From Anaeromyxobacter diazotrophicus (GTDB taxonomy: Bacteria > Myxococcota > Myxococcia > Myxococcales > Anaeromyxobacteraceae), in contig NZ_BJTG01000002.1 in the NCBI RefSeq assembly GCF_013340205.1, forward strand, positions 186,001 through 250,000: a stretch of DNA of 64,000 bases, written 5' to 3'. Below are positions 4,866-51,962 of the stretch, one piece after another. The notes beneath the pieces were generated by a model. It had not been told where the DNA came from and did no database searches. It saw nothing but the letters and a program-made list of their open reading frames with translations. Numbering within the stretch: position 1 is the first letter of the stretch; every line of letters starts with the position of its first letter. The position numbers and the translations under genes were made by a program.

Positions 4866-6368
4866 ATGCGTAGACTTGTCGCAGCACTCACGACGTGCCT
4901 GGCGGTGGTGAGCCTGGCGCTCCCCGCGTTCGCCCGCGCCGAAACGCAGGACCAGAAGGAGCAGCAGGAGAAGATCGACAAGCTGGCGAAGGAGCTCGAG
5001 GCGCTGAAGAAGGAGGTCAAGCGGACCGAGGACAAGTCCCTCGGCCGCTGGCTCACCATCGGCGGCGACTACCGGTTCCGGATCGACTCGCTGCACGGCG
5101 AGGTGCCGAACTACTTCCAGTACCTCGGTCCCACGGCGATGCCGGCGGCCGTGCCCGGCTACAAGCCGACGAACGACACGCTCATGACCAACCGCTTCGG
5201 CCTCAACATGAAGGCCAAGGCGACCCAGGACGTGACCATCTCGTCGCGCCTGCTCATGTACAAGACGTTCGGCATGCAGACGGCGCAGGCCACGAACGCC
5301 GGCTTCTTCGCCGACCGCTCCTCGGTCCTGGACGGCACCGTCGGCCACATCCCGCTCGACAACACCCTGCGGGTGGATCAGGTCTACGCCACCTGGAACA
5401 ACATCGCCGGCCAGCCGATCTGGTTCTCGGTCGGGCGCCGCCCGTCCACCGGCGGGTCGCCCACCCACCTCCGGCAGGACAACGACCGCCCCGGCAGCGC
5501 GGGCGTCCCCGGGCTCCTCGTCGACTACGCCTTCGACGGCGCCACCCTCGGGTTCGCGCCCGAGATCGACGCGCTCCCCGGCGCGTTCGGGAAGCTCTGC
5601 GCCGGCCGCGGCTTCGAGGCCGGGTACGACGTCTCGCCCCAGACCGGGGGCACCAAGAGCCTCCTCAAGGACACCGACATGCTCGGCGTCTCGCTCGTCC
5701 CGGTCGACATCGATCCGATCCGCGTCGACCTTCAGTGGAACCGCGGGTTCAACATCTTCGACAACCCGAACAACGTCGGGGCCCAGCTCGGCGACATCGA
5801 CTGGTTCGGCGCCGGCGTGCTCAGCACGCTCAAGGAGGTGGGCCCGGGCAACCTGACGATGTTCGCCAGCGGCGGCCTGAGCATCACGCACCCGAACGGC
5901 AACCACGCGCTGCTCGCCGGCCTCAACTCTCCGGACTCCGGCGCCGGCCTGCTCGTGAACGGCCCCGACAAGAGCTCGAACACCGGCTACTCGGTCTACG
6001 CCGGCCTCCGCTACGACCTACCGTCCGGCACCAAGATCGGCGGCGAGTACAACCACGGCTCGGAGTTCTGGATCCCGTTCGTCCCGGCCGCCGACGACAT
6101 GTGGACGAGCAAGCTCGGCACCCGCGGCAACGTCTACGAGGTCTACCTGATCCAGGAGCTGCCGCTGGCCGCGATCGCGTCCTTCACGAGCAAGACCTTC
6201 TTCCGGCTGGGCTACCAGTACTACGACTTCACCTACACCGGCAGCAACAACTGGGTCGGCGCTCCGGTGAAGATCTCCGACCTGTCGGCCAGCCCGATGA
6301 ACGCCCAGATGTTCGCGCCGCTCAAGTCCGCGCACGACATCTACGCGACGTTCGAGGTGAAGCTGTAG
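4866..6368 (+). CDS. Outer-membrane porin (DUF3373-like)
   Basis: Encodes a 500-residue outer-membrane beta-barrel, probably of the DUF3373 putative-porin type seen in metal-reducing deltaproteobacteria. A signal peptide ends near AFARA (residue 24). It is followed by a short coiled coil (QDQKEQQEKIDKLAKELEAL) and then a long run of alternating amphipathic strands ending in an aromatic/charged strand, YATFEVKL, typical of barrel C-termini. ATG 4866 has an AAGGGG ribosome-binding site 8 nt upstream; an in-frame ATG at 4851 is less well placed. A hairpin and the small-protein gene follow. The operator array and sigma-54 promoter upstream make it a member of the proposed respiratory regulon, presumably as the substrate entry channel. 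Confidence 0.75.
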   Translation: MRRLVAALTTCLAVVSLALPAFARAETQDQKEQQEKIDKLAKELEALKKEVKRTEDKSLGRWLTIGGDYRFRIDSLHGEVPNYFQYLGPTAMPAAVPGYKPTNDTLMTNRFGLNMKAKATQDVTISSRLLMYKTFGMQTAQATNAGFFADRSSVLDGTVGHIPLDNTLRVDQVYATWNNIAGQPIWFSVGRRPSTGGSPTHLRQDNDRPGSAGVPGLLVDYAFDGATLGFAPEIDALPGAFGKLCAGRGFEAGYDVSPQTGGTKSLLKDTDMLGVSLVPVDIDPIRVDLQWNRGFNIFDNPNNVGAQLGDIDWFGAGVLSTLKEVGPGNLTMFASGGLSITHPNGNHALLAGLNSPDSGAGLLVNGPDKSSNTGYSVYAGLRYDLPSGTKIGGEYNHGSEFWIPFVPAADDMWTSKLGTRGNVYEVYLIQELPLAAIASFTSKTFFRLGYQYYDFTYTGSNNWVGAPVKISDLSASPMNAQMFAPLKSAHDIYATFEVKL

Positions 6369-6369
6369 G

Positions 6370-6387
6370 CGGGCGACGGATCGCCCG
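6370..6387. terminator. Hairpin between porin and small-protein gene
   Basis: CGGGCGA-CGGA-TCGCCCG forms a perfect 7-bp stem with a 4-nt loop directly behind the porin stop. No T-run follows, so it is more likely a 3'-end stabiliser or attenuator that sets the ratio of porin to downstream mRNA than a full terminator. Confidence 0.4.
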
Positions 6388-6435
6388 GGGCGCAGCACAG
6401 GTGAACCAGCAGCACGCGGTCCCAAGGGGTTCCAC

Positions 6436-8395: not shown

Positions 8396-9550
8396 ATGAG
8401 AGCGACGAGCTACGAGGGTCCTTACCGCATCGCGGTGAAGGACAAGCCTGACCCTCGCATCGAGCACCCGCAGGACGCGATCCTGCGCGTCACCTGCGCC
8501 GGGATCTGCGGGTCCGATCTGCACCTGCTGCACGGCCGCGTGCCCGACACGCGCATCGGGTCGACCTTCGGACACGAGATCGTCGGGGTGGTGGAGGAGG
8601 TCGGGCCGGAGGTGACCGCCGTCTCGCGCGGCGACCGGCTGGTCGTGCCGTTCAACATCTCCTGCGGGGCCTGCTACTTCTGCTCGCGCGGGCTCACCGC
8701 CTGCTGCGAGAACACCAACCCCTCGTCGGACGTCGCCTGCGGCGTGTACGGGTACTCGCACACGACGGGCGGCTACGACGGTGGCCAGGCCGAGTACGTG
8801 CGCGTCCCCTTCGCCGACGTCGACCCGATGAAGCTGCCCGACGGGCTGAGCGACCTGCAGGCGGTCCCGCTCGCCGACGCTTACCCGACCGGCTACCAGG
8901 GCGCGGAGATGTGCGGCCTCGAGGGAGGTGAGACCGTGGTCGTCTTCGGCGCCGGGCCGGTCGGGCTGTACGCCATGCGCTCGGCCTGGCTGCTCGGGGC
9001 GGGGCGCGTCATCGCGGTGGACAAGGTCGGGTACCGGCTCGACTTCGCGCGCCGCTGGGCGGGGGCGGAGGCGATCGACTTCGAGGACGCCGACGTCATC
9101 ACCGCCATCAAGGACCTGACGGACGGGCGCGGCGCCGACGCGACCATCGAGGCGGTCGGGTGCGAGGCGGCCGGTTCACCCATGCAGCGGGCGATCGGCG
9201 TCTACGTCAAGGGCGTCGCGGGCTCCGCGACCGCGCTCAACTGGTGCTTCCACGCGACGAAGAAGGGCGGGACGGTGTCGGTGCTGGGCGTCTTCGGCCC
9301 GCCCATGGCGCTCGTGGACTTCGGCACGGCGATGAACAAGTGCCAGACCATCCGCACGGGGCAGTGCAGCGTGAAGCGCTACCTGCCGCAGCTCCTCGAG
9401 CACGTCCAGGCCGGCCGCATGCCGGTCGAGGAGCTCATCACGCACCGCTACCCGCTGGAGGAGGCGTCGCGCGCCTACCACACGTTCGCGCAGAAGGAGG
9501 ACGGCTGCGTGAAGGCCGTGCTGCTGCCGGGCACGGGCACCGTGCACTGA
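8396..9550 (+). CDS. Zinc-dependent alcohol dehydrogenase (formaldehyde dehydrogenase-like)
   Basis: Encodes a 384-residue medium-chain dehydrogenase/reductase. The catalytic zinc site is seen in CAGICGSDLH (near residue 35) and GHEIVGVVEEVG. The structural zinc loop is CGACYFCSRGLTACC near residue 92. The NAD(P)-binding Rossmann motif is VVFGAGPVGLYAMRSA near residue 182. Long insertions after the cofactor domain (AGSPMQRAIGVYVKG...) resemble the glutathione-independent formaldehyde dehydrogenase branch. The start ATG is 8396. The hypothetical gene at 9559 follows within 9 bp and is probably co-transcribed. Substrate is uncertain; an aldehyde or alcohol oxidation role is inferred. Confidence 0.88.
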   Translation: MRATSYEGPYRIAVKDKPDPRIEHPQDAILRVTCAGICGSDLHLLHGRVPDTRIGSTFGHEIVGVVEEVGPEVTAVSRGDRLVVPFNISCGACYFCSRGLTACCENTNPSSDVACGVYGYSHTTGGYDGGQAEYVRVPFADVDPMKLPDGLSDLQAVPLADAYPTGYQGAEMCGLEGGETVVVFGAGPVGLYAMRSAWLLGAGRVIAVDKVGYRLDFARRWAGAEAIDFEDADVITAIKDLTDGRGADATIEAVGCEAAGSPMQRAIGVYVKGVAGSATALNWCFHATKKGGTVSVLGVFGPPMALVDFGTAMNKCQTIRTGQCSVKRYLPQLLEHVQAGRMPVEELITHRYPLEEASRAYHTFAQKEDGCVKAVLLPGTGTVH

Positions 9551-9558
9551 GGATCGCC

Positions 9559-10014
9559 ATGGAAGAGCTGACGCCTTCGAATCCGCAGCACCCGCTCGCA
9601 GGAGAGCGCGCCCGGCAGCCGATCCCGGGCGCCGGCATCGACCTCGACCCGGCCCGGCGGCCAGGGGTCCCCAGGCTGCACGCGCCCCGGCCGCTCCCGA
9701 ACGCGCACGGCCCGCCGACCCGGCAAGAGAGCCAGGTGACCGTCTTCATGCACGGCCGGCCGCACAAGGACTTCCCGCCGGTGTTCGGGACGGCCGTGCC
9801 CCCGAGCGGCCTCTCGGGCCTCCTCCGGCGGGCCGCCTATCGCTACCCGGACCACTGGATGCGCCACTGGACGGTGCTGCTCTTCGCCGACCGGGTGGAC
9901 GCCTGGGAGCACCGCCTGCGCCGGTCGCTGCCGGTGGTCCTCCCGGCGCTGCTGGTGATCGGGGCGGGCGCCGCCTGGAAGGCGCTCTCGCGGCGAGCCG
10001 CCTGGGCTGGCTGA
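9559..10014 (+). CDS. Hypothetical protein with one C-terminal membrane span, 151 aa
   Basis: I do not recognise this protein. It has a proline-rich soluble N-terminal half, a central block rich in aromatic and charged residues (RRAAYRYPDHWMRHWTVLLF), and one hydrophobic helix near residues 125-142 (VVLPALLVIGAGAAW). The GAGG ribosome-binding site overlaps the stop of the dehydrogenase 8 bp upstream, so the two genes are likely translated from one mRNA. It may anchor or assist the dehydrogenase, but that is only a guess from position. Confidence 0.6.
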   Translation: MEELTPSNPQHPLAGERARQPIPGAGIDLDPARRPGVPRLHAPRPLPNAHGPPTRQESQVTVFMHGRPHKDFPPVFGTAVPPSGLSGLLRRAAYRYPDHWMRHWTVLLFADRVDAWEHRLRRSLPVVLPALLVIGAGAAWKALSRRAAWAG

Positions 10015-10047
10015 CGGCCGCTTTGCGCCGGGCCGGCGGTTCGTGCC

Positions 10048-11604
10048 ATGTTCCGCGCCCGCATGGCCGCCCACGACCGCAGCGCCCGGCTCGCGCCGGA
10101 GGAGCTCGAGCGGACGCTCGACGTCCTCGCCCGCGTCGCGGCCGATCGCACCCTGCTCGCCGAGCTGCCGGCCGACGCGCGGGTGGCGCTGCAGCGGCTG
10201 GCGGGCGAGGTGGCGCGCCCCGATCTCAAGGCGCGGAAGAAGCTGCAGAAGGCGCTGCTGCGCCGGGAGAAGGCCGGCCGGAAGTCCTCCGACGCGGCCC
10301 TGCGCCGGGCCACCGGCATCCAGCGGCTGCGGAGCGCGGCGGTGTTCCCGACCCCGCTCCCGCCGGCCCCGGCCGGCGTCACCGCCCAGGACGCCGAGGC
10401 CCCGGCGAGCCCCGCGCTGAACGCGCCCCGCAAGTGCTACGTCTGCAAGGCCGCCTACCGCGCGCTGCACCCGTTCTACGACCAGCTCTGCCCGGCCTGC
10501 GGCGACGCGAGCTTCGCGCGCCGGAGCGCCACCGCCGACCTGCGCGGCCGCGTCGCGCTCGTCACCGGGGCGCGGGTCAAGATCGGCTACCAGGCGGCCA
10601 TCCTGCTGCTCCGCGCCGGCTGCGCCGTGGTGGCCTGCACCCGCTTCCCGCGCGACGCGGCGGCGCGCTACGCCCGCGAGCCCGACTTCGAGGCCTGGCG
10701 GGACCGCCTCACCATCCACGGCGTCGACCTGCGGCACACGCCCAGCGTCGAGCGCCTCTGCCACCACCTCGACCGGTCCCTGCCGCGGCTCGACTTCCAG
10801 CTCCACAACGCCTGCCAGACCGTGCGGCGGCCGCCCGGGTTCTACGCCCACCTGGTCGAGCGCGAGCAGCTCGCGCCGTCGGCGGTCCCGGCGCGCGAGC
10901 GAGCGCTCCTCGCCGACTACGAGGCGCTCCGCGCCGGCCTCGGGCGCGGGTCCCCCGGCGTGGCGAGCCCGGCGCTCCTGTCCCAGGCGGCGAGCGCGGC
11001 CGACCTCCTGCTGGAAGGGCAGGGCGGGGTCGAGATCTTCCCCCGCGGCGTGCTCGACCAGGACCTGCAACAGGTCGATCTGCGCGCCCACAACTCGTGG
11101 CGGCTGGCGCTGCACGAGGTCCCGACGCTGGAGCTGCTGGAGGTGCTGCTGGTCAACGCCACCGCGCCCTTCGTCATGACGGCCCGGCTCAAGCCCCTCA
11201 TGCTGCGCCAGCGGCAGGCGCCGCCCGGCACCGCCACCAGCGGCGACCCCGCCAAGCACGTGGTGCTCGTGTCGGCGATGGAGGGGCAGTTCTACCGGGC
11301 CCACAAGACGGACCGGCACCCGCACACGAACATGGCCAAGGCCGCGCTCAACATGATCGTGCGGACGAGCGCGCCGGACTACGCCCGAGACGGCATCCAC
11401 CTCAACGCGGTCGACACCGGCTGGGTGACCGACGAGGACCCGGTCCACCTGGCGGCGCGAAAGGCCGAGGAGCACGCCTTCTCGCCGCCCCTCGACGTGG
11501 TGGACGGCGCCGCGCGCATCGTGGCGCCCATCCTCGAGGGGTTCCGCACCGGCCAGCACCCGGCCGGCCTCTTCTTCAAGGACTACCAGCCAGCGCCGTG
11601 GTGA
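10048..11604 (+). CDS. SDR-fold protein with N-terminal extension and zinc knuckle
   Basis: Encodes a 518-residue protein with three parts. Residues 1-125 are a charged helical region. Residues 130-155 hold a two-CxxC zinc knuckle (CYVCKAAYRALHPFYDQLCPACG). From residue 165 a short-chain dehydrogenase/reductase Rossmann fold begins, with TGARVKIGYQ as the cofactor loop. The later catalytic region reads VSAMEGQFYR...HTNMAKAALN, so the Lys of YxxxK is present but the Tyr is not (Thr occupies its place). A conventional dehydrogenase reaction is therefore doubtful. A 100-residue insertion (residues 275-360) separates the two halves of the fold. An alternative start is the ATG at 10063. It converges on the methyltransferase gene. 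Confidence 0.75.
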   Translation: MFRARMAAHDRSARLAPEELERTLDVLARVAADRTLLAELPADARVALQRLAGEVARPDLKARKKLQKALLRREKAGRKSSDAALRRATGIQRLRSAAVFPTPLPPAPAGVTAQDAEAPASPALNAPRKCYVCKAAYRALHPFYDQLCPACGDASFARRSATADLRGRVALVTGARVKIGYQAAILLLRAGCAVVACTRFPRDAAARYAREPDFEAWRDRLTIHGVDLRHTPSVERLCHHLDRSLPRLDFQLHNACQTVRRPPGFYAHLVEREQLAPSAVPARERALLADYEALRAGLGRGSPGVASPALLSQAASAADLLLEGQGGVEIFPRGVLDQDLQQVDLRAHNSWRLALHEVPTLELLEVLLVNATAPFVMTARLKPLMLRQRQAPPGTATSGDPAKHVVLVSAMEGQFYRAHKTDRHPHTNMAKAALNMIVRTSAPDYARDGIHLNAVDTGWVTDEDPVHLAARKAEEHAFSPPLDVVDGAARIVAPILEGFRTGQHPAGLFFKDYQPAPW

Positions 11605-37437: not shown

Positions 37438-37627
37438 GGACAGACTCCGTCCATGACTCGGGATTTCACCCCGCTCCCCATGGCGCGGAACGTCCTCCGA
37501 ACCCCACCATTGGTCAAGTGCCGAGGGCAGGTGAGGGCCGCGCGACCTGTGGTCTCAGGGGCGGGTAAACGGCCTGGGTGAGGAGGGCGAGTCGACGAGG
37601 ACCCGCACCGGAACGCGTACGCTCAGC

Positions 37628-38041
37628 TCAGCTCCGGGCGAAGGCGCAGCCGGCCGCGGCGGCGTAGCCGGCCGCGATCTGGCGCACGAGCGAGCGCAGC
37701 CCCTCCGGCTCCACCGGCTTCTGGGCGGTGGGGCGCGTGTTGCGCTCGAGGAACGACCGCGCACGAGGCGTGAAGGCGCCGCCGGTCACGAACGCCACGC
37801 GCGCGATGAGGTCGGGGCGGCTGCGGTTCAGGCGCTCGAAGAACTCGACCCCGTCGACCACCGGCATCTGCAGGTCGCACAGGATGACGTCCCAGGTCTC
37901 GCCCGAGGCGGCGCGGCGCAGCGCCTCCGCCGCCGAGGAGAGCGCCGTGATGTCGTGGTCACGGCCCAGGATCCGAGCGAAGGAGCGGATGAGCAGCTCC
38001 TCGTCGTCGATGATGAGCACACGATGTCGCGGCTCGCCCAT
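37628..38041 (-). CDS. Stand-alone receiver-domain response regulator
   Basis: Encodes a 137-residue CheY-like receiver without output domain: RVLIIDDEELLIRSFARIL, phosphoacceptor region DVILCDLQMPVVDG, and the conserved Lys in RPTAQKPVEP. It shares extended identity with the C-terminal receiver of the kinase 190 bp upstream, including VTGGAFTPRARSFLERNTRPT, which points to a local duplication. ATG 38041 follows a GAGGGG sequence and is preferred over the in-frame 38089 start. The 190 bp between it and the kinase (37438-37627) hold no gene I can support. Confidence 0.85.
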   Translation of the reverse strand: MGEPRHRVLIIDDEELLIRSFARILGRDHDITALSSAAEALRRAASGETWDVILCDLQMPVVDGVEFFERLNRSRPDLIARVAFVTGGAFTPRARSFLERNTRPTAQKPVEPEGLRSLVRQIAAGYAAAAGCAFARS

Positions 38042-38194
38042 GCTCCCCTCGGAGGATCGAGATCCCCGGAGCTGCCCGACGTGGGTCAACCAGATGGGTC
38101 GGCATTATCGGCTGACACCATCGGTGACGCAAGCTGGCGACCGCTCTCCCGCACGGGTGGCGAAATCGCGTGCGATCGAGCTGCCCTGAAAGGG

Positions 38195-38222
38195 GGCGAC
38201 CGGATGCCCGCGCGCCGGTCGG
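38195..38222 (-). terminator. Terminator-like hairpin after NikR gene
   Basis: GACCGG and CCGGTC arms near 38200 and 38216, read on the minus strand, are followed by CCCCCTTTC. It lies directly behind the NikR stop. Confidence 0.4.
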
Positions 38223-38226
38223 CGAG

Positions 38227-38646
38227 CTAGCGGAGGTCGTGGCCGGTCGTCGCCGGCACGAGCTTCCCGTACTTCACGCCCTTGGTCGCGACGAGCCCTT
38301 CGCCCATGCGCAGGACCTCGCCCGCGCCGCCGCGCAGCACGAGCACCTCGAGGCAGTTGTGCTCGTCCATGTGGACGTGGAGCGCTGAGACCACCGCCCG
38401 GTGGTTCTCGTGCTGGATGTGCGCGAGCTTCTGCGCCAGGCTCGAGGCGTCGTGGTCGTAGACGAGCGTCACCACCGCGACCTTCTCGTCCTCGCCGCTC
38501 GAGCGCGACCACTCGCGCTGCACGAGCGCGTCGCGGATGAGGTCGCGGATCGCCTCGGAGCGATTCTCGTACCCCTTCTCCGCGATGACCTCGTCGAACC
38601 GCGCGAGCAGCTCCTGCTCCAGCGAGATGCCGATGCGCTCGATCAT
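38227..38646 (-). CDS. nikR: Nickel-responsive regulator NikR
   Basis: Encodes a 139-residue ribbon-helix-helix repressor of the NikR family. The RHH part is RIGISLEQELLARFDEVIAEKGYENRSEAIRDLIRDAL (residues 4-41). The C-terminal ACT-like domain has the nickel ligands at His79, His90, His92 and Cys98 (HIQHE, LHVHMDEHNCLE), the same spacing as E. coli NikR His76, His87, His89 and Cys95. It should bind DNA when nickel is bound and repress nickel uptake genes, none of which lie in this window. The gene is divergent from the E2-like gene across a 94-bp spacer. Confidence 0.93.
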   Translation of the reverse strand: MIERIGISLEQELLARFDEVIAEKGYENRSEAIRDLIRDALVQREWSRSSGEDEKVAVVTLVYDHDASSLAQKLAHIQHENHRAVVSALHVHMDEHNCLEVLVLRGGAGEVLRMGEGLVATKGVKYGKLVPATTGHDLR

Positions 38647-38740
38647 GCCGCCCTTCTAACACGGCGGCGGGCGAGCGCCTCCGCAAGCCACCCCTGACGG
38701 GGCACTGCGCCGGCGGGCTCCAGCGCCGCATCCATTTCCC

Positions 38741-39135
38741 ATGGGAGTCGAGCTCGTCGAGACCGGCTTCACCCGCGCGCTCCGCGACCAGGCGATCGTC
38801 GACGCGCAGCTCCCCGCCGCCACCCGCTCGGTGAAGGCCGACGGCGTGCGCGGGTGGGTGTACCCGGTCCGCTCGCGGCTCGGCGACCTGTTCACCCTCT
38901 TCCTGTGGTTCGACGGCAGCGCCTACCAGACGGCAGCGCCTACCAGGTGAAGGTGCTCCAGCCCGCCCTCGACGTCGAGCGGCCGCACGCCTGCCACCTC
39001 TTCCCCGGCGGCCGCATCTGCCTCGGCGCGGAGCAGAGCGGCGGCGCGCCGACGCTGGAGTCGGCCTACGCGCGGAGCGTCGTCTGGGCCAACGGCTACA
39101 GCGTCTACCAGCGCGAGGGGGCGTTCCCCTTCTAG
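38741..39135 (+). pseudogene. E2-like (UBC-fold) gene disrupted by 17-bp tandem duplication
   Basis: The 5' part (38741 to about 38929) reads MGVELVETGFTRALRDQAIV and on to LFLWFDGSAYQ. The 3' part, in another frame, continues VKVLQPALDVERPHACHLFPGGRICLGAEQSGG and ends YSVYQREGAFPF. Removing one copy of the 17-bp tandem duplication at 38912-38945 joins them into a 125-residue protein with an E2-like core: PH near residue 76, the presumed catalytic Cys88 in GRICLG, and a final WANGYSVYQ helix. The frameshift stops the first frame at 38950. The gene is therefore broken as read, unless slippage or repeat contraction restores it. It lies upstream of the JAB-E1 gene in the same direction. Confidence 0.72.
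38912..38945. repeat. 17-bp perfect tandem duplication inside E2-like gene
   Basis: Two adjacent copies of GACGGCAGCGCCTACCA, first at 38912-38928 and second at 38929-38945. The 17-bp unit shifts the frame by +2. Loss of one copy restores a continuous reading frame. Confidence 0.95.
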
Positions 39136-39148
39136 GAGGCAGTGCCCG

Positions 39149-39343
39149 ATGGCCCAGCTCGATCTCGAACGGCTCCGGGCGGTGGTGCTCGACAACCGCC
39201 GCGGCGGCGACGCGCGGCCGCGGGAGCGGCGCCGCCAGGTCTTCGTCGACCCGAGCGGCCGCGTGCTCGTCGGCGACGACGTGGACGCGGACGGCGCGCG
39301 CCAGCTGTCCGAGGTGCACCAGGGCGTCTTCGCGGCGCCGTGA
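39149..39343 (+). CDS. 64-residue protein in ubiquitin-like operon
   Basis: Encodes MAQLDLERLRAVVLDNRRGG followed by a basic stretch and RRRQVFVDPSGRVLVGDDVDADGARQLSEV. I do not recognise it. It has a strong AGGAGG site that overlaps the E2-like gene's stop, and its own stop overlaps the JAB-E1 start as GTGA. The strand-turn-strand part could be a fragment of a beta-grasp or a small adaptor, but it lacks a C-terminal Gly-Gly, so a ubiquitin-like modifier is not supported. Its position between the E2-like and E1 genes suggests a role in the same conjugation system. Confidence 0.65.
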   Translation: MAQLDLERLRAVVLDNRRGGDARPRERRRQVFVDPSGRVLVGDDVDADGARQLSEVHQGVFAAP

Positions 39344-41178
39344 GCGGCGCCGCCTTCGCGATCGGCGACTGGGTGCTGCGCGCCCTGGAGCGCGACCTCG
39401 CCGCGCGGCCGCCCGAGCGCGGGGGCGCGCTGCTCGGTCCGCCCGGCCGGCCGCTCGTCACCTGCTACCTCGCCGACCCCGACGCCGCCTCCTCCCCGCG
39501 GAGCTGGGCCCCGTCGCGCGCGCTGGCGGCGCGCGTCCGGGAGGTCGAGCGCGCCGAGGGGCTCGAGCTGAAGGGGCTCGTCCACTCGCACCCGCCCGGC
39601 CTCGACGCGCCGTCCGCGCAGGACGCGCTGGAGCTGGCGGCCGGACTCCGCGCCAACGGGCACCTCGCGAGCTACCTCGCGCCCATCGTGAGCGAGGGCG
39701 CGCCGTCCGCGGGCGCGCGGCACGAGCTGCCGCTCGGCGCGTCCAAGCTCGGCTTCTACGCGGGGTGGCGCGCCGAGGGCCCCGCCCGCGTGGCGCCGGT
39801 GGCGGCGCGGGCCCTCCCGCTCCTGCGCGATCTGGAGCGCCTCCAGGGCGAGCTGGGCGGCGAGGCGCCGGAGGTGTTCGTGACGGACCTCGGCGCCGGG
39901 CCGGCGCCGGCCGGCCGGCTGGCGCTGCCCGGCCTGGAGCTCGTGCTGGTCGCGTCCGAGCAGTACCCGCACCTCCCGCCGGTCCTGCTCGCCACCTGCG
40001 AGGGGGGCCCGACCGAGCAGCTCGACCTCCGCTGGCCGCTGGCGCTGCCGGACGGCGAACGGCTACCCGCGGCGCTGCGGGAGCACCTCGCGCCGCCCGG
40101 CCCGTACCGGCGCGGCTTCGGGCCGGCCGGCGGCCCCGCCCTCACCGGAGACGAGGAGCGCGCGCGCCGGGCCGGGTTCACGCCCCGGTACCAGGCGGGC
40201 GATCCGGACGCCCGCGGCGCCGCGCTGGCGGCGCGGCTCCTGGCCCGGGGCGAGGGGCTCGTCTCGGCGGAGCTGCGCGGGCGGTGCGCGCTCGTCGCGG
40301 GCCTGGGCTCGGTGGGCTCGTACCTCGCCGAGCAGCTCGTGCGGGCGGGGGTGGGGGCGGTGGCGCTGGTGGACCCGGAGGCGGTCGAGCCGGAGAACCT
40401 GTCGCGGACGTGCTACGAGGCGGCCGACGTCGGCGCGCCCAAGGTCGAGGCGCTGGCGCGGCGGCTGCTCCGGGTCGCGCCCGCGCTCCGGTGCGAGGCA
40501 CGCGCGACCGCGGTGGAGGATCTCTCGCCCCTGGAGCTCGACGCGCTCGTGGGCGGGGCGGACGTGGTGCTGGCCGCGACCGACGACCCGGCCGCGCAGC
40601 GCGCGCTCGACCGCTTCGCCTACGCGCGGGGGCGGCCCGCGCTCTTCGTGGGCCTCTACGCGGGGGCGCGCGGCGGCGAGGTGATCGTGACGGTGCCCGA
40701 GCGGACTGCCTGTTACCTGTGCGCGACGCGCACCCGCCACCAGGCGGAGCGCGCGGCCGGCGCGGTCGCGCGGCCGGTCGACTACGGGACCGGGCGGCTG
40801 CAGGGCGAGGTGGCGCTGGCGGCCGACATCCAGCACGTGGCGAGCGCGGGCGTGAAGCTGGCGCTCTCGCTGCTGCTGCCGCCGGGCGGGCCGGCCGCGC
40901 TGGCGGGGTTCGCGGAGGAGCCCGTCGCCGCCGGCGCCTCGTACCTCACCCTCTCCACCGTGCCGCGCTACTGGTTCTACCCGGAGCTCTTCGGCGAGGT
41001 GCCGGGGCAGGGCGCCTACCAGGCGGTGTGGCTCACGCCGTCGCGCGACCCCGCCTGCCCGGTGTGCGGCGACCGCGCGGCGCGGGTGGACCCGCGGGAG
41101 GTCCCGCTGCGGGCGCCGTCGCGCGAGGCGGTGCTCGCCGCCCTCACCTCGCCGGCAGCTTCAGGCCCAGCTCGATGA
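39340..41178 (+). CDS. JAB-(E2-like)-E1 fusion, ubiquitin-like activating enzyme
   Basis: Encodes a 612-residue three-part protein starting at GTG 39340. Residues 5-140 are a JAB/MPN metallopeptidase: Glu27 in ERGGALLG, His82 and His84 in HSHPPG, and Asp95 in SAQD form the JAMM zinc site. Residues 175-250 show an E2/RWD-like strand pattern with LVLVASEQYPHLPPVLLATC (a YPxxPP signature). Residues 315-560 are a ThiF/MoeB E1 domain: GLGSVG nucleotide loop, DPEAVEPENLSR, and a zinc site from CYLC near 457 and CPVC near 580. Such a chain could adenylate, transfer and remove a ubiquitin-like modifier. The start overlaps the preceding stop. The end overlaps the convergent exonuclease gene by 35 bp. 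Confidence 0.85.
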   Translation: MSGAAFAIGDWVLRALERDLAARPPERGGALLGPPGRPLVTCYLADPDAASSPRSWAPSRALAARVREVERAEGLELKGLVHSHPPGLDAPSAQDALELAAGLRANGHLASYLAPIVSEGAPSAGARHELPLGASKLGFYAGWRAEGPARVAPVAARALPLLRDLERLQGELGGEAPEVFVTDLGAGPAPAGRLALPGLELVLVASEQYPHLPPVLLATCEGGPTEQLDLRWPLALPDGERLPAALREHLAPPGPYRRGFGPAGGPALTGDEERARRAGFTPRYQAGDPDARGAALAARLLARGEGLVSAELRGRCALVAGLGSVGSYLAEQLVRAGVGAVALVDPEAVEPENLSRTCYEAADVGAPKVEALARRLLRVAPALRCEARATAVEDLSPLELDALVGGADVVLAATDDPAAQRALDRFAYARGRPALFVGLYAGARGGEVIVTVPERTACYLCATRTRHQAERAAGAVARPVDYGTGRLQGEVALAADIQHVASAGVKLALSLLLPPGGPAALAGFAEEPVAAGASYLTLSTVPRYWFYPELFGEVPGQGAYQAVWLTPSRDPACPVCGDRAARVDPREVPLRAPSREAVLAALTSPAASGPAR

Positions 41179-41662
41179 GCTGCAGCATCACCCCGGCGTT
41201 GGCGCGGGCGTCGTTCACCGGATCGTGGTCGTGTGGCGTGCGGCGCAGGTGCTTCCAGGTCGCGTAGCCGTCCTTCACCATCCCGCAGTAGAGGTCGCCG
41301 ATGCGCCGGCCGCTCCAGCCGAACGGGTTCTTCCCGAGGTAGGCGTGGAAGTAGTAGTTGATGAACTGCCAGTCGAAGGCGAGGTTGTCGGAGCAGAAGA
41401 CCGGCCGGCCCTTCGAGACCTCCGCGATCCAGGCGGCGAAGCGCTCCATCACCGGCCCCGGCTCCTCGAAGCGCAGGTGCGCCTCCCGGCTCACCCCCGA
41501 GATCGCGAGCGCCTCGGGCAGGAACCGGTCGGAGATGGGCCGCACCTCGCCCTTGAACGCGAGCTCGAGCGACGGCTCCACCACCACCGCCCCGAACGAC
41601 ACCATCGAGTAGAGCGGCGGGACCGGCCCGTCCGCCTCGACGTCGACCACGATGAGCGACAT
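41144..41662 (-). CDS. DnaQ-like 3'-5' exonuclease
   Basis: Encodes a 172-residue DEDDh exonuclease. ExoI is the motif VVDVEADGP (residues 5-13). ExoII lies in VFCSDNLAFDWQFINYYF, and ExoIII in HDHDPVNDARANAGVM, with the terminal His-Asp pair (HDPVNDA) for metal binding. It could trim DNA or RNA; single-domain exonucleases of this type occur next to many genes and have no fixed partner. The open frame upstream of ATG 41662 has no coding character. It converges with the JAB-E1 gene. Confidence 0.85.
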   Translation of the reverse strand: MSLIVVDVEADGPVPPLYSMVSFGAVVVEPSLELAFKGEVRPISDRFLPEALAISGVSREAHLRFEEPGPVMERFAAWIAEVSKGRPVFCSDNLAFDWQFINYYFHAYLGKNPFGWSGRRIGDLYCGMVKDGYATWKHLRRTPHDHDPVNDARANAGVMLQLIELGLKLPAR

Positions 41663-41791
41663 GCGCCGATCATGGCACGCCCGGCCCGCGAGCGCTGGGG
41701 CCTCGTGCCCCGGAGGGGTCGAGGGGCGGCGCGGGGCGCGGCCGCCCGCCGGGCGTGCTAGGGAGATCGCTCCCCGCCCCCGAGGTGCCCC

Positions 41792-43435
41792 ATGGACGGC
41801 CTCATGATGGACTTCCCGCTCACCCTCATCCACGTGCTGGAGCGGGCCGGCCAGCTCCACCGCGACCAGGAGGTCGTGTCGCGCCTCCCGGACGAGAGCC
41901 TGGCGCGCACCACCTGGGCGGACCTGTACCGCCGCATCCACAAGCTCGCCAACGCGCTGCAGCGCCTGGGGGTGAAGCCGGGCGACCGGGTGGCCACGCT
42001 CGCCTGGAACCACGCCCGCCACCTCGAGGCCTACTTCGCGGTGCCGGCCATGGGCGGCGTGCTGCACACCGTGAACCCCCGGCTGCACCCGTCCGACCTC
42101 GCCTACATCGTGAACCACGCCCAGGACCAGGTGCTGCTCGTCGACGACGTGCTCCTGCCGGTGCTGGAGCGCTTCCGCGCGGAGATCCGGCCCCGGCACG
42201 TGGTGGTCTTCGGGCACGGGCAGCCGCCGCCGGAGGGCATGCTCGACTACGAGCAGCTCATCGCCGACGAGCTCACCACCTTCGAGTACCCGCGGATCGA
42301 GGAGCACCAGGCGGCCGGCCTCTGCTACTCGTCGGGCACGACCGGGCGGCCCAAGGGCGTGCTCTACTCGCACCGCGCGCTCGTGCTCCACTCGCTCGCC
42401 TCGGCGCTCCCGGACGTGATCGGCATCGGGATGAGCGACGTGCTCCTGCCGGTGGTGCCGATGTTCCACGTCAACGCCTGGGGCACGCCCTTCACCGCGG
42501 CGCTCGTCGGCGCGAAGCTGGTCTTCCCCGGCCCGCACCTCGACGCGAGGAACCTGCTCCACCTCATGGCGGAGGAGCGCGTGACGCTCGCCGCCGGCGT
42601 GCCGACGGTGTGGCTGGCGGTGCTGGACGAGCTCGACCGGGCCCCGAAGTCGCGCGACCTCTCCGCCCTGCGCGGCCTGCTCGTCGGCGGGGCGGCGGCG
42701 CCGCCGGCCATGATCGACGCCTACCGCGAGCGGCACGGCATCGAGGTCGTGCACGCCTGGGGCATGACCGAGATGACGCCCATCGGCACCGTCTGCCGGC
42801 TCAAGCCCACGCTGGCGCGCCTGCCCGCGGCCGAGCAGCGGCGCCTCCGCGCCACGCAGGGCCTGCCGCTCCCGCTGGTCGAGGTGCGCGCCATGGGCGA
42901 GGACGGCCCGGCGCCGTGGGACGGGCGCACCATGGGCGAGCTGCACGTGCGCGGCCCCTGGATCGCGAAGAGCTACTTCGAGAACCCGCTCGAGGCGGAC
43001 AAGTTCACCATGGACGGCTGGTTCCGCACCGGCGACATCGTCACCATCGACCCGGAGGGCTACGTCCGGATCACCGACCGCTCGAAGGATCTCATCAAGT
43101 CGGGCGGTGAGTGGATCAGCTCGGTGGACCTCGAGAACGCGCTCATGGGCCACCCCGCCGTGCGCGAGGCGGCGGTGGTGGCGGTGCCGCACCCGCGCTG
43201 GGGGGAGCGGCCGGTGGCGGCGGTGGCGCTGCGGGAGGGCGCGCACGCCGGCCCGGAGGAGCTGCGCGCCTACCTCGAGCCACGCTTCGCGCGCTTCTGG
43301 CTGCCGGACGGCTTCGTCTTCGTGCCGCAGATCCCGCGCACCGCCACCGGCAAGTTCCTGAAGAGCGCGGTGCGCGAGCTGCTGAAGGACTGGCGGCCAC
43401 CGGACGAGGCGCGGCCGGGCTCTACATCACCTTGA
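41792..43435 (+). CDS. Fatty-acyl-CoA synthetase (AMP-forming)
   Basis: Encodes a 547-residue ANL-superfamily ligase. The AMP-binding P-loop is [12 protein letters not shown] (near residue 178). Later motifs are [12 protein letters not shown] (near 317), [35 protein letters not shown] (407-442) and the catalytic lysine in RTATGKFLK near 523. The SGGEWIS hinge and the TEMTP motif fit medium- or long-chain acyl-CoA synthetases. Start ATG 41792 follows GAGGTG. It is a stand-alone gene whose end overlaps the convergent lipoprotein gene by 14 bp. Confidence 0.92.
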
Positions 43436-50009: not shown

Positions 50010-51962
50010 TCAGAACAGCCGGCGGACGTCGTCCGCCCCGTAGTCGGTCACCCACAGTGACCCGTCGAAGAAGACCACGCCGTACGGCATGGGGCCGGTC
50101 TTGAGCGTGGCGAGAATCGCCCCGTCCGTCGCGCGCAGCTCGCAGACCGTGTCGTCTCCGGTGTTCGCCACCCAGACGGTGCCGCCGCCGCCCGGCGAGA
50201 TGCCGAGCGGTGAATTCCCGACCTTGAAGGTGGCGGTCGAGCCGCTGCCCGGCGTCACCCGGACGACCGTGTTGCTCGCGTGGTTCGAGAACCAGACGTA
50301 GGTCCCGTCGTACGTGATCCCGTAGGCGTCGGCGGCCGGGATCACGGGCGGGATGAGCTGGCCGTCGCCCCGGAGGTGCAGGACGCCCGTGGTCGTCGCG
50401 ACCCAGTAGGTGCTGCCGTCGTAGGCGATGCCCGTCGGGGCGTGGCCCCACTGCCCGATGTCGTACGTCGCGAGCACGGCGCCGGAGATCCGGTCCAGCT
50501 TCGTGACCTTGTCCGAACCGTAGTCCGCGACCCAGAGCCCGGACACCGTCCAGAGGACGCCGTGCGGCTGCGCTCCTGCGTCGTACTTCTCATGGTTCTT
50601 CACGACCTTGTCCTCGCCGGTCAGCGAGATCCAGATGCCGTGGATGACGGGGTCCCACGCCATGTCGCCGCGCGGGTTCGCGCCGACGTACTCGGACCCC
50701 ACCGTCATATAGGAGAGCGACACCGTCGTGAGCGTCCCCGCGCCGGTGCTCGCGACGCTCAGGCGATAGCCGCCGGCCAGACCCGTCCACACGAGCATCC
50801 CGTAGGGCTGAGGTCCGACGTAGATGCTCAGCGGCTCCCGCGGCGATGCGCTCACGATCACGTACGCGAAGTCGAACTTGCCCGGGTCGGCGACGCTCTT
50901 CGCGACGACGCGGCAGTTCCCCGCGCTCGCCGGCGCGTGGAAGACGGTGCTGGCGCCGCGCGCCGGCGACACCGACGCGCCGGGGCAGCCGTCCGTCGTC
51001 CAGTCGGCCTCCAGCGAGGGAGCGCACGAGCCGGCCGGCGAGACCGCGGCCGTGAGCGCCGCGGTGCCGCCGATCGCGGCGACCGCGTCCTGCACCCGGA
51101 CGCTCGCCACGCCACAGGCGGTGAACGACGCGGTGACGGTCCTGCCGGCGGTCATCGTGCACGTGCACGTCGCGCCGCTCGTGGAGTCGCACCCGCTCCA
51201 GCCGGCGAAGGTGGACCCGGCGTCCGGGGTCGCCGTGAGCGTCACCGCCGTCCCATCGGCGACGGACACGCTGCACGTGGCTCCGCAGCTGATCCCACCG
51301 CCGCTGACGGTGCCCGTCCCCGAGCCATGCTTCTCGAGCGTGAGAGCGTGCTGGTTGGGCGTCAGCGCCGCGAACGAAGCCGTCACCGCCCTGTCGGCCG
51401 AGACCGTGCACGTGCACGCCGTCCCGGAGGTGGAGTCGCAGCCGCTCCAGCCCGCGAACGTGGCGTTCGGGTCGGGCGCCGCCGTCAACGTCACCACCGT
51501 GCCGTCGGCCGCGGACACGCTGCACGTGGCTCCGCAGCTGATCCCGCTGCCGCTGACGGTGCCCGTCCCCGACCCGGTCTTCTGGACGGTCAGGGTGTGC
51601 GTGGTGGGGCCGCTCAGGACGAAGGACGCCGTGACGGTCCTGCCGGCGGTCATCGTGCACGTGCACGTCGCTCCGATCGTGGAGTCACACCCGCTCCAGC
51701 CGGCGAAGGCGGAGCCGCCGTCGGGCGTGGCAGTCAGCGTCACGCTCGCGCCCTGATCGACGGATGCGCTGCACGTCGATCCGCAGAGGATGCCGCTCCC
51801 GCTGACGGTGCCCGTCCCCGCCCCGGTCTTCTGGACGGCGAGGGCGACCGGTGTTCCGCCGCCTCCATCGCTGCCCCCACCACCTCCTCCGCCTCCACCT
51901 CCGCACGCCAACAGCGCAAACGCCGTGGCAGACAAGCACGCGACACCGGGTCCCCGAGCCAT
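50010..51962 (-). CDS. Secreted lipoprotein with three Cys-rich repeats and beta-propeller
   Basis: Encodes a 650-residue lipoprotein. Signal and lipobox ACLSATAFALLAC are followed by a Gly/Ser linker. Three repeats of about 75 residues (residues 38-260) each read like LTVQKTGSGTGTVSGSGISC and end in TASF, with four to six cysteines per repeat, resembling the 'divergent' InlB-type/bacterial repeat. A Cys-rich bridge of about 90 residues follows. From residue 370 an NHL/virginiamycin-lyase-type beta-propeller is seen (YDIGQWGHAPTGIAYDG, NSPLGISPGGGGTVWVANTGDD). It probably acts as a surface binding or adhesion protein. Confidence 0.82.
   Translation of the reverse strand: MARGPGVACLSATAFALLACGGGGGGGGGGSDGGGGTPVALAVQKTGAGTGTVSGSGILCGSTCSASVDQGASVTLTATPDGGSAFAGWSGCDSTIGATCTCTMTAGRTVTASFVLSGPTTHTLTVQKTGSGTGTVSGSGISCGATCSVSAADGTVVTLTAAPDPNATFAGWSGCDSTSGTACTCTVSADRAVTASFAALTPNQHALTLEKHGSGTGTVSGGGISCGATCSVSVADGTAVTLTATPDAGSTFAGWSGCDSTSGATCTCTMTAGRTVTASFTACGVASVRVQDAVAAIGGTAALTAAVSPAGSCAPSLEADWTTDGCPGASVSPARGASTVFHAPASAGNCRVVAKSVADPGKFDFAYVIVSASPREPLSIYVGPQPYGMLVWTGLAGGYRLSVASTGAGTLTTVSLSYMTVGSEYVGANPRGDMAWDPVIHGIWISLTGEDKVVKNHEKYDAGAQPHGVLWTVSGLWVADYGSDKVTKLDRISGAVLATYDIGQWGHAPTGIAYDGSTYWVATTTGVLHLRGDGQLIPPVIPAADAYGITYDGTYVWFSNHASNTVVRVTPGSGSTATFKVGNSPLGISPGGGGTVWVANTGDDTVCELRATDGAILATLKTGPMPYGVVFFDGSLWVTDYGADDVRRLF
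51130..51800. repeat. Three long near-identical repeats in lipoprotein gene
   Basis: DNA blocks of about 220 bp recur three times and encode the repeat TVSGxGISCGATCSVSxADGT-VTLTAxPD-xxxFAGWSGCDSTSGxxCTCT. The first and third copies are the most alike. Such direct repeats allow copy-number change by recombination. Confidence 0.7.

Follow-up and report, generated by a model that had tools for sequence, protein, structure and literature searches.

An E2-like gene of Anaeromyxobacter diazotrophicus (nt 38741–39135 of the window, i.e. the 64-kb stretch of DNA analyzed as a whole) probably lost its function recently through a spontaneous 17-bp tandem duplication that is limited to this lineage or strain. 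The gene stands at the head of a cassette with a small protein and a long fusion enzyme. The features concerned are as follows.

nt 38741–39135, + strand: E2-like gene, interrupted; the homologue, of about 125–130 aa, is open in nine relatives.
nt 38741–38950, + strand: 5' fragment of 69 aa plus stop, without the conserved ICL cysteine and without the C-terminal helix.
nt 38912–38928, + strand: first of the two copies of the unit GACGGCAGCGCCTACCA (17 bp), seen in the sequence and by TRF.
nt 38929–38945, + strand: second copy of the unit GACGGCAGCGCCTACCA, followed by G (nt 38946), which is the first base of the unit.
nt 38926–39135, + strand: 3' part in its own frame; contains HACHLFPGGRICLG, including the likely catalytic cysteine, and shares 58–65% identity with relatives.
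nt 39149–39343, + strand: small protein of 64 aa, unassigned to a family, with an AGGAGG ribosome-binding site upstream; conserved in the nine relatives.
nt 39340–41178, + strand: 612-aa fusion of JAB, an RWD-like middle and ThiF/E1, with JAMM and E1 motifs intact.

The two perfect copies described in the original prediction are present. TRF reports the region nt 38912–38946 as 2.1 copies of GACGGCAGCGCCTACCA with 100% matches, and the pair is the only perfect tandem pair with a period of 14–60 in the window. Randomized windows (Markov orders 1, 3 and 5) contained 0–0.03 perfect tandem pairs of any period from 14 to 60 per window, and under an iid model the expected number of perfect pairs of period 17 is 0.0002. 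The repeat is far above chance expectation, and the possibility of a chance occurrence is negligible. A repeat of a different kind lies at nt 51123–51838, where a 249-bp unit is tandemly repeated almost three times, the copies being 78% alike. No further occurrence of GACGGCAGCGCCTACCA with up to one mismatch was found in the genome. The homology that pre-existed at the duplication breakpoints amounts to 1 bp, the ancestral site having carried no seeding repeat; no DNA hairpin exceeding those of shuffled sequences was found at the duplication, and no Rfam family was found within nt 37500–42000. Replication slippage or misaligned repair would have copied the unit once, between ends sharing this single base pair.

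The consequence for the reading frame is also as originally proposed. The frame that opens at nt 38741 passes through copy one and, shifted by the 17 added base pairs, is terminated just past the repeat by the stop at nt 38948–38950, giving a product that ends ...FDGSAYQTAAPTR. The remainder of the gene stays open in the other frame up to nt 39135, and when the gene is read with a single copy it aligns without a break to the homologues of all nine relatives. Since the catalytic cysteine, as predicted from conservation, and the conserved C-terminal helix are encoded 3' of the break and are hence missing from the 69-aa product, E2 activity should be lost. A second E2 of this type was not found in the genome. 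The frames of the small protein and of the JAB, RWD-like and E1 fusion are unaffected, and the small gene has its own ribosome-binding site.

The interrupted protein is probably an E2, a label that is moderately supported by sequence comparison. A profile built from the nine relatives was compared with Prok-E2_B (PF14461) sequences from elsewhere in the phylum, and the match was centred on the catalytic H...DG..C motif (hhalign, pairwise E values 1.5e-4 to 2.9e-4, probability 51.6%, 18 columns aligned); two control comparisons gave E = 0.34. The two groups share the aligned HxxxxDGxxC motif, but the Prok-E2_B proteins compared are long fusions whereas the protein here is short and separate. 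Every one of the nine relatives, as well as a homologue from a Hyphomicrobiaceae MAG (L091), has the cysteine of G[RK][IL]C, whereas the other cysteine (HAC) is not kept in the latter, so that a conserved catalytic cysteine preceded by a histidine motif, as expected of an E2, is present. On the other hand, Pfam, PADLOC and NCBIfam gave no E2 match. The structural model has the order H-E-E-E-E-loop-H, which is compatible with a UBC fold, but is of low confidence (pLDDT 64), and a Foldseek search with this model retrieved no E2. The E2-like designation of the original prediction is borne out at the level of the motif, without a match to curated family models or, from the low-confidence model, to a fold.

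Homologues were sought in 23 relatives from the Anaeromyxobacteraceae, nine of which carry an intact E2-like gene with 53–65% identity to the one-copy reading. In all nine the order is the same (E2-like gene, 64-aa protein, long enzyme), the long gene of one (G016) running to the end of its contig. The cassette is patchy, being present in two of the six genera of the family. None of the nine has the repeat: at the site each carries the unit once, and the E2 frame stays open; among them the MAG RBG_16_69_14, which belongs to the same genus, shares the peptide DGSAYQVKV. Shared decay, which would have left the same broken frame throughout the relatives, is refuted, and by the sequences compared the break is private to this genome. 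It also looks young. On the two sides of the break, otherwise invariant columns deviate in this genome in 3 of 13 and 2 of 26 cases, compared with 3 of 13 and 4 of 28 in one relative with an open gene (L023) and 3 of 13 and 1 of 25 in another (L024), and conservation of the partner genes is at the level seen in the relatives. Normal conservation of both halves and of the partners points to a recent mutation or an artefact rather than to old decay.

The artefact is the less likely of these two, yet it deserves to be taken seriously. In that case, joining or polishing of the sequence failed to collapse a short overlap, and the strain in reality carries a single copy and a functional E2. The break is confined to one draft assembly (4.83 Mb in 17 contigs), in a gene that is otherwise perfectly preserved here and in all relatives and whose partner genes are intact; a 3' part without any decay is equally expected from an assembly error. 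Against this, the site is interior to a 645-kb contig (C2, in which the window lies), without N, and a scan of 848 kb of the assembly returned no second duplication of the kind: low-complexity arrays aside, this is the sole frame-shifting perfect duplication of at least 14 bp. Other perfect duplications of 12–60 bp in the scanned sequence have units that are all multiples of three, barring 13-bp low-complexity arrays and their compounds, which are confined to one kilobase, while a complete genome of a relative shows three duplications in 400 kb that are not multiples of three. The low-complexity kilobase lies at about 617.6–618.6 kb of contig C2 (L053, nt 9463–10497) and consists of 13-bp arrays of the GGTCGAGGTCGAT type with longer compound units. 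Further, in about 92 orthologue matches to a relative (99 kb aligned) not one gene of this genome is truly frameshifted. Two cases that resembled frameshifts proved to be errors of ORF calling, the upstream matches falling in overlapping frames beyond the bounds of the real gene, and both genes are open. As neither another frame-shifting duplication nor a frameshift in the compared genes was seen, the assembly appears generally sound.

Phase variation, which the original prediction had put forward, is possible in principle but unsupported. The proposal that slipped-strand mispairing gains and loses one 17-bp copy, and thereby switches the E2 and with it the conjugation system within a population, is very improbable; so is the reading of a reversible switch of a bacterial ubiquitin-like conjugation system, in which two-copy cells would be E2-off and one-copy cells E2-on, so that a minority of cells bears a conjugation or defence pathway that may be costly. 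The arrangement itself, a perfect tandem pair that shifts the frame inside an otherwise intact ORF, is what a contingency locus would display, and reversible tandem duplications within ORFs are described for pneumococcal capsule genes, where, as cited in PMC4022640, phase variation was observed for duplications in the type 3 capsule locus, cap8E and tts (Waite et al. 2001, 2003). The likeness to these cases, so far as that citation describes them, is that a short perfect duplication breaks the frame and could in principle be lost again. The difference is that switching was observed there, while here a single assembly provides a single allele and the gene does not serve a surface structure. Copy number does not vary among the relatives (none of the nine has a repeat at the site), there are two copies and no multi-copy array, and the pre-existing homology was 1 bp. 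The expected reversion rate, at most about 1e-5 for duplications of up to 9 bp (PMC4022640), is low for a dedicated switch. Loss of one copy by chance is a property of any such duplication and not a sign of an evolved switch. Under the preferred explanation, recent inactivation by spontaneous duplication, the perfect repeat could lose a copy at a low rate, and the allele would be potentially revertible while being a mutation all the same.

That the gene is an established pseudogene, the duplication being one early lesion in a system that is decaying as a whole in this lineage, is very improbable: the E2 frame is shifted and the cassette is patchily distributed in the family, but neither the E2-like gene nor its two partners show a further lesion, and deviations from invariant columns are not above those of functional relatives. 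That the two-copy gene still yields a functional product, whether in two chains or through ribosomal frameshifting, can practically be dismissed, for while a -1 shift between nt 38912 and 38950 would regain the downstream frame and an alternative GTG-started ORF spans nt 38854–39135, the N-terminus of that ORF is foreign, the gene is split in no relative, and frameshifting is ruled out as there is no X_XXY_YYZ slippery heptamer in nt 38741–38950.

The downstream partners were described at the outset as intact, and both are indeed open and conserved. The 612-aa enzyme has a JAB domain (Prok-JAB, PF14464) at aa 14–103 and an E1 part of about aa 310–475 that matches ThiF/E1 (PF00899) at aa 317–474. 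Its middle part (about aa 160–250) is predicted to form a helix, strands and a helix, and carries a YPxLPP motif; the same region of the Hyphomicrobiaceae MAG homologue gives a weak RWD match (E = 0.019) that fails the Pfam cut-off. From this we infer that the middle may be an inactive E2/RWD-like domain, and the cassette may pair an active E2-like domain with an inactive one. In the Hyphomicrobiaceae MAG the small protein precedes the E2-like protein in a single fused chain (L091, nt 5857–6411) and the JAB part is separate from E1, an arrangement that ties all three proteins of the cassette together. Upstream of that cassette (nt 1107–4274 of L091) lies a gene for a 1055-aa protein with TIR and WD40 domains. 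The 64-aa protein has no family match and no C-terminal glycine, and its fusion ahead of the E2-like protein in the MAG, taken with the absence of that glycine, argues against a free-tailed ubiquitin-like modifier. It is the sole further gene of the cassette, and no ubiquitin-like protein was recognized there.

The window genes adjoining the cassette have the look of a NikR-like gene, a response regulator and genes of housekeeping type. The NikR-like regulator (nt 38227–38646; RHH and NikR_C) is divergent from the cassette. A tblastn search gave no match to it at the cassette loci of the relatives, indicating that the cassette occupies differing genomic places. ORF comparison of the neighbourhoods found no fourth gene common to all cassette loci, and no relatives were found among viral contigs or plasmids.

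If the allele is a real null, it provides a natural E2-minus version of an unstudied cassette of E2, small protein and JAB-RWD-E1 enzyme, with which intact relatives, Anaeromyxobacter oryzae for one, could usefully be compared. Switching, if true, would to our knowledge be the first case in a bacterial ubiquitin-like system. As an ordinary mutation, or as an artefact, the break is chiefly a caution for operon annotation; it is ordinary as a mutation, and the little-studied cassette is the more interesting object.

Three known systems resemble the cassette in part. Type II CBASS likewise brings E1, E2 and JAB activities together (Cap2/Cap3), and its E1 is related (PADLOC E1-E2 models, PDB 7tsq), but here JAB sits on the N-terminus of E1 and the E2 is separate, and no CD-NTase or effector was found adjoining the cassette, going by how the neighbouring genes read. 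Operon type 6e of Iyer et al. 2006 (PMC1779556) has JAB joined N-terminally to an E1-like enzyme, an RWD-like inactive E2 domain and ubiquitin-like proteins. The cassette shares the order of JAB and E1 and an RWD-like or inactive-E2-like stretch; it differs in that this stretch lies inside the JAB-E1 protein, in having a separate E2-like protein with a conserved cysteine, and in lacking a recognized ubiquitin-like protein. The N-terminal fusion of JAB to E1 that marks both type 6e and the Bub (bacterial ubiquitination-like) operon is found here. With the latter, as represented by Citrobacter BubCD, the cassette has in common the order of the JAB-E1 fusion and a separate E2; it differs in having an additional middle domain and no recognized BubA-like protein. 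Sequence similarity to BubCD is remote and confined to the E1 part (E = 2e-4), while in Foldseek the model of the 612-aa enzyme aligns to BubCD (9ea4) over 567 columns.
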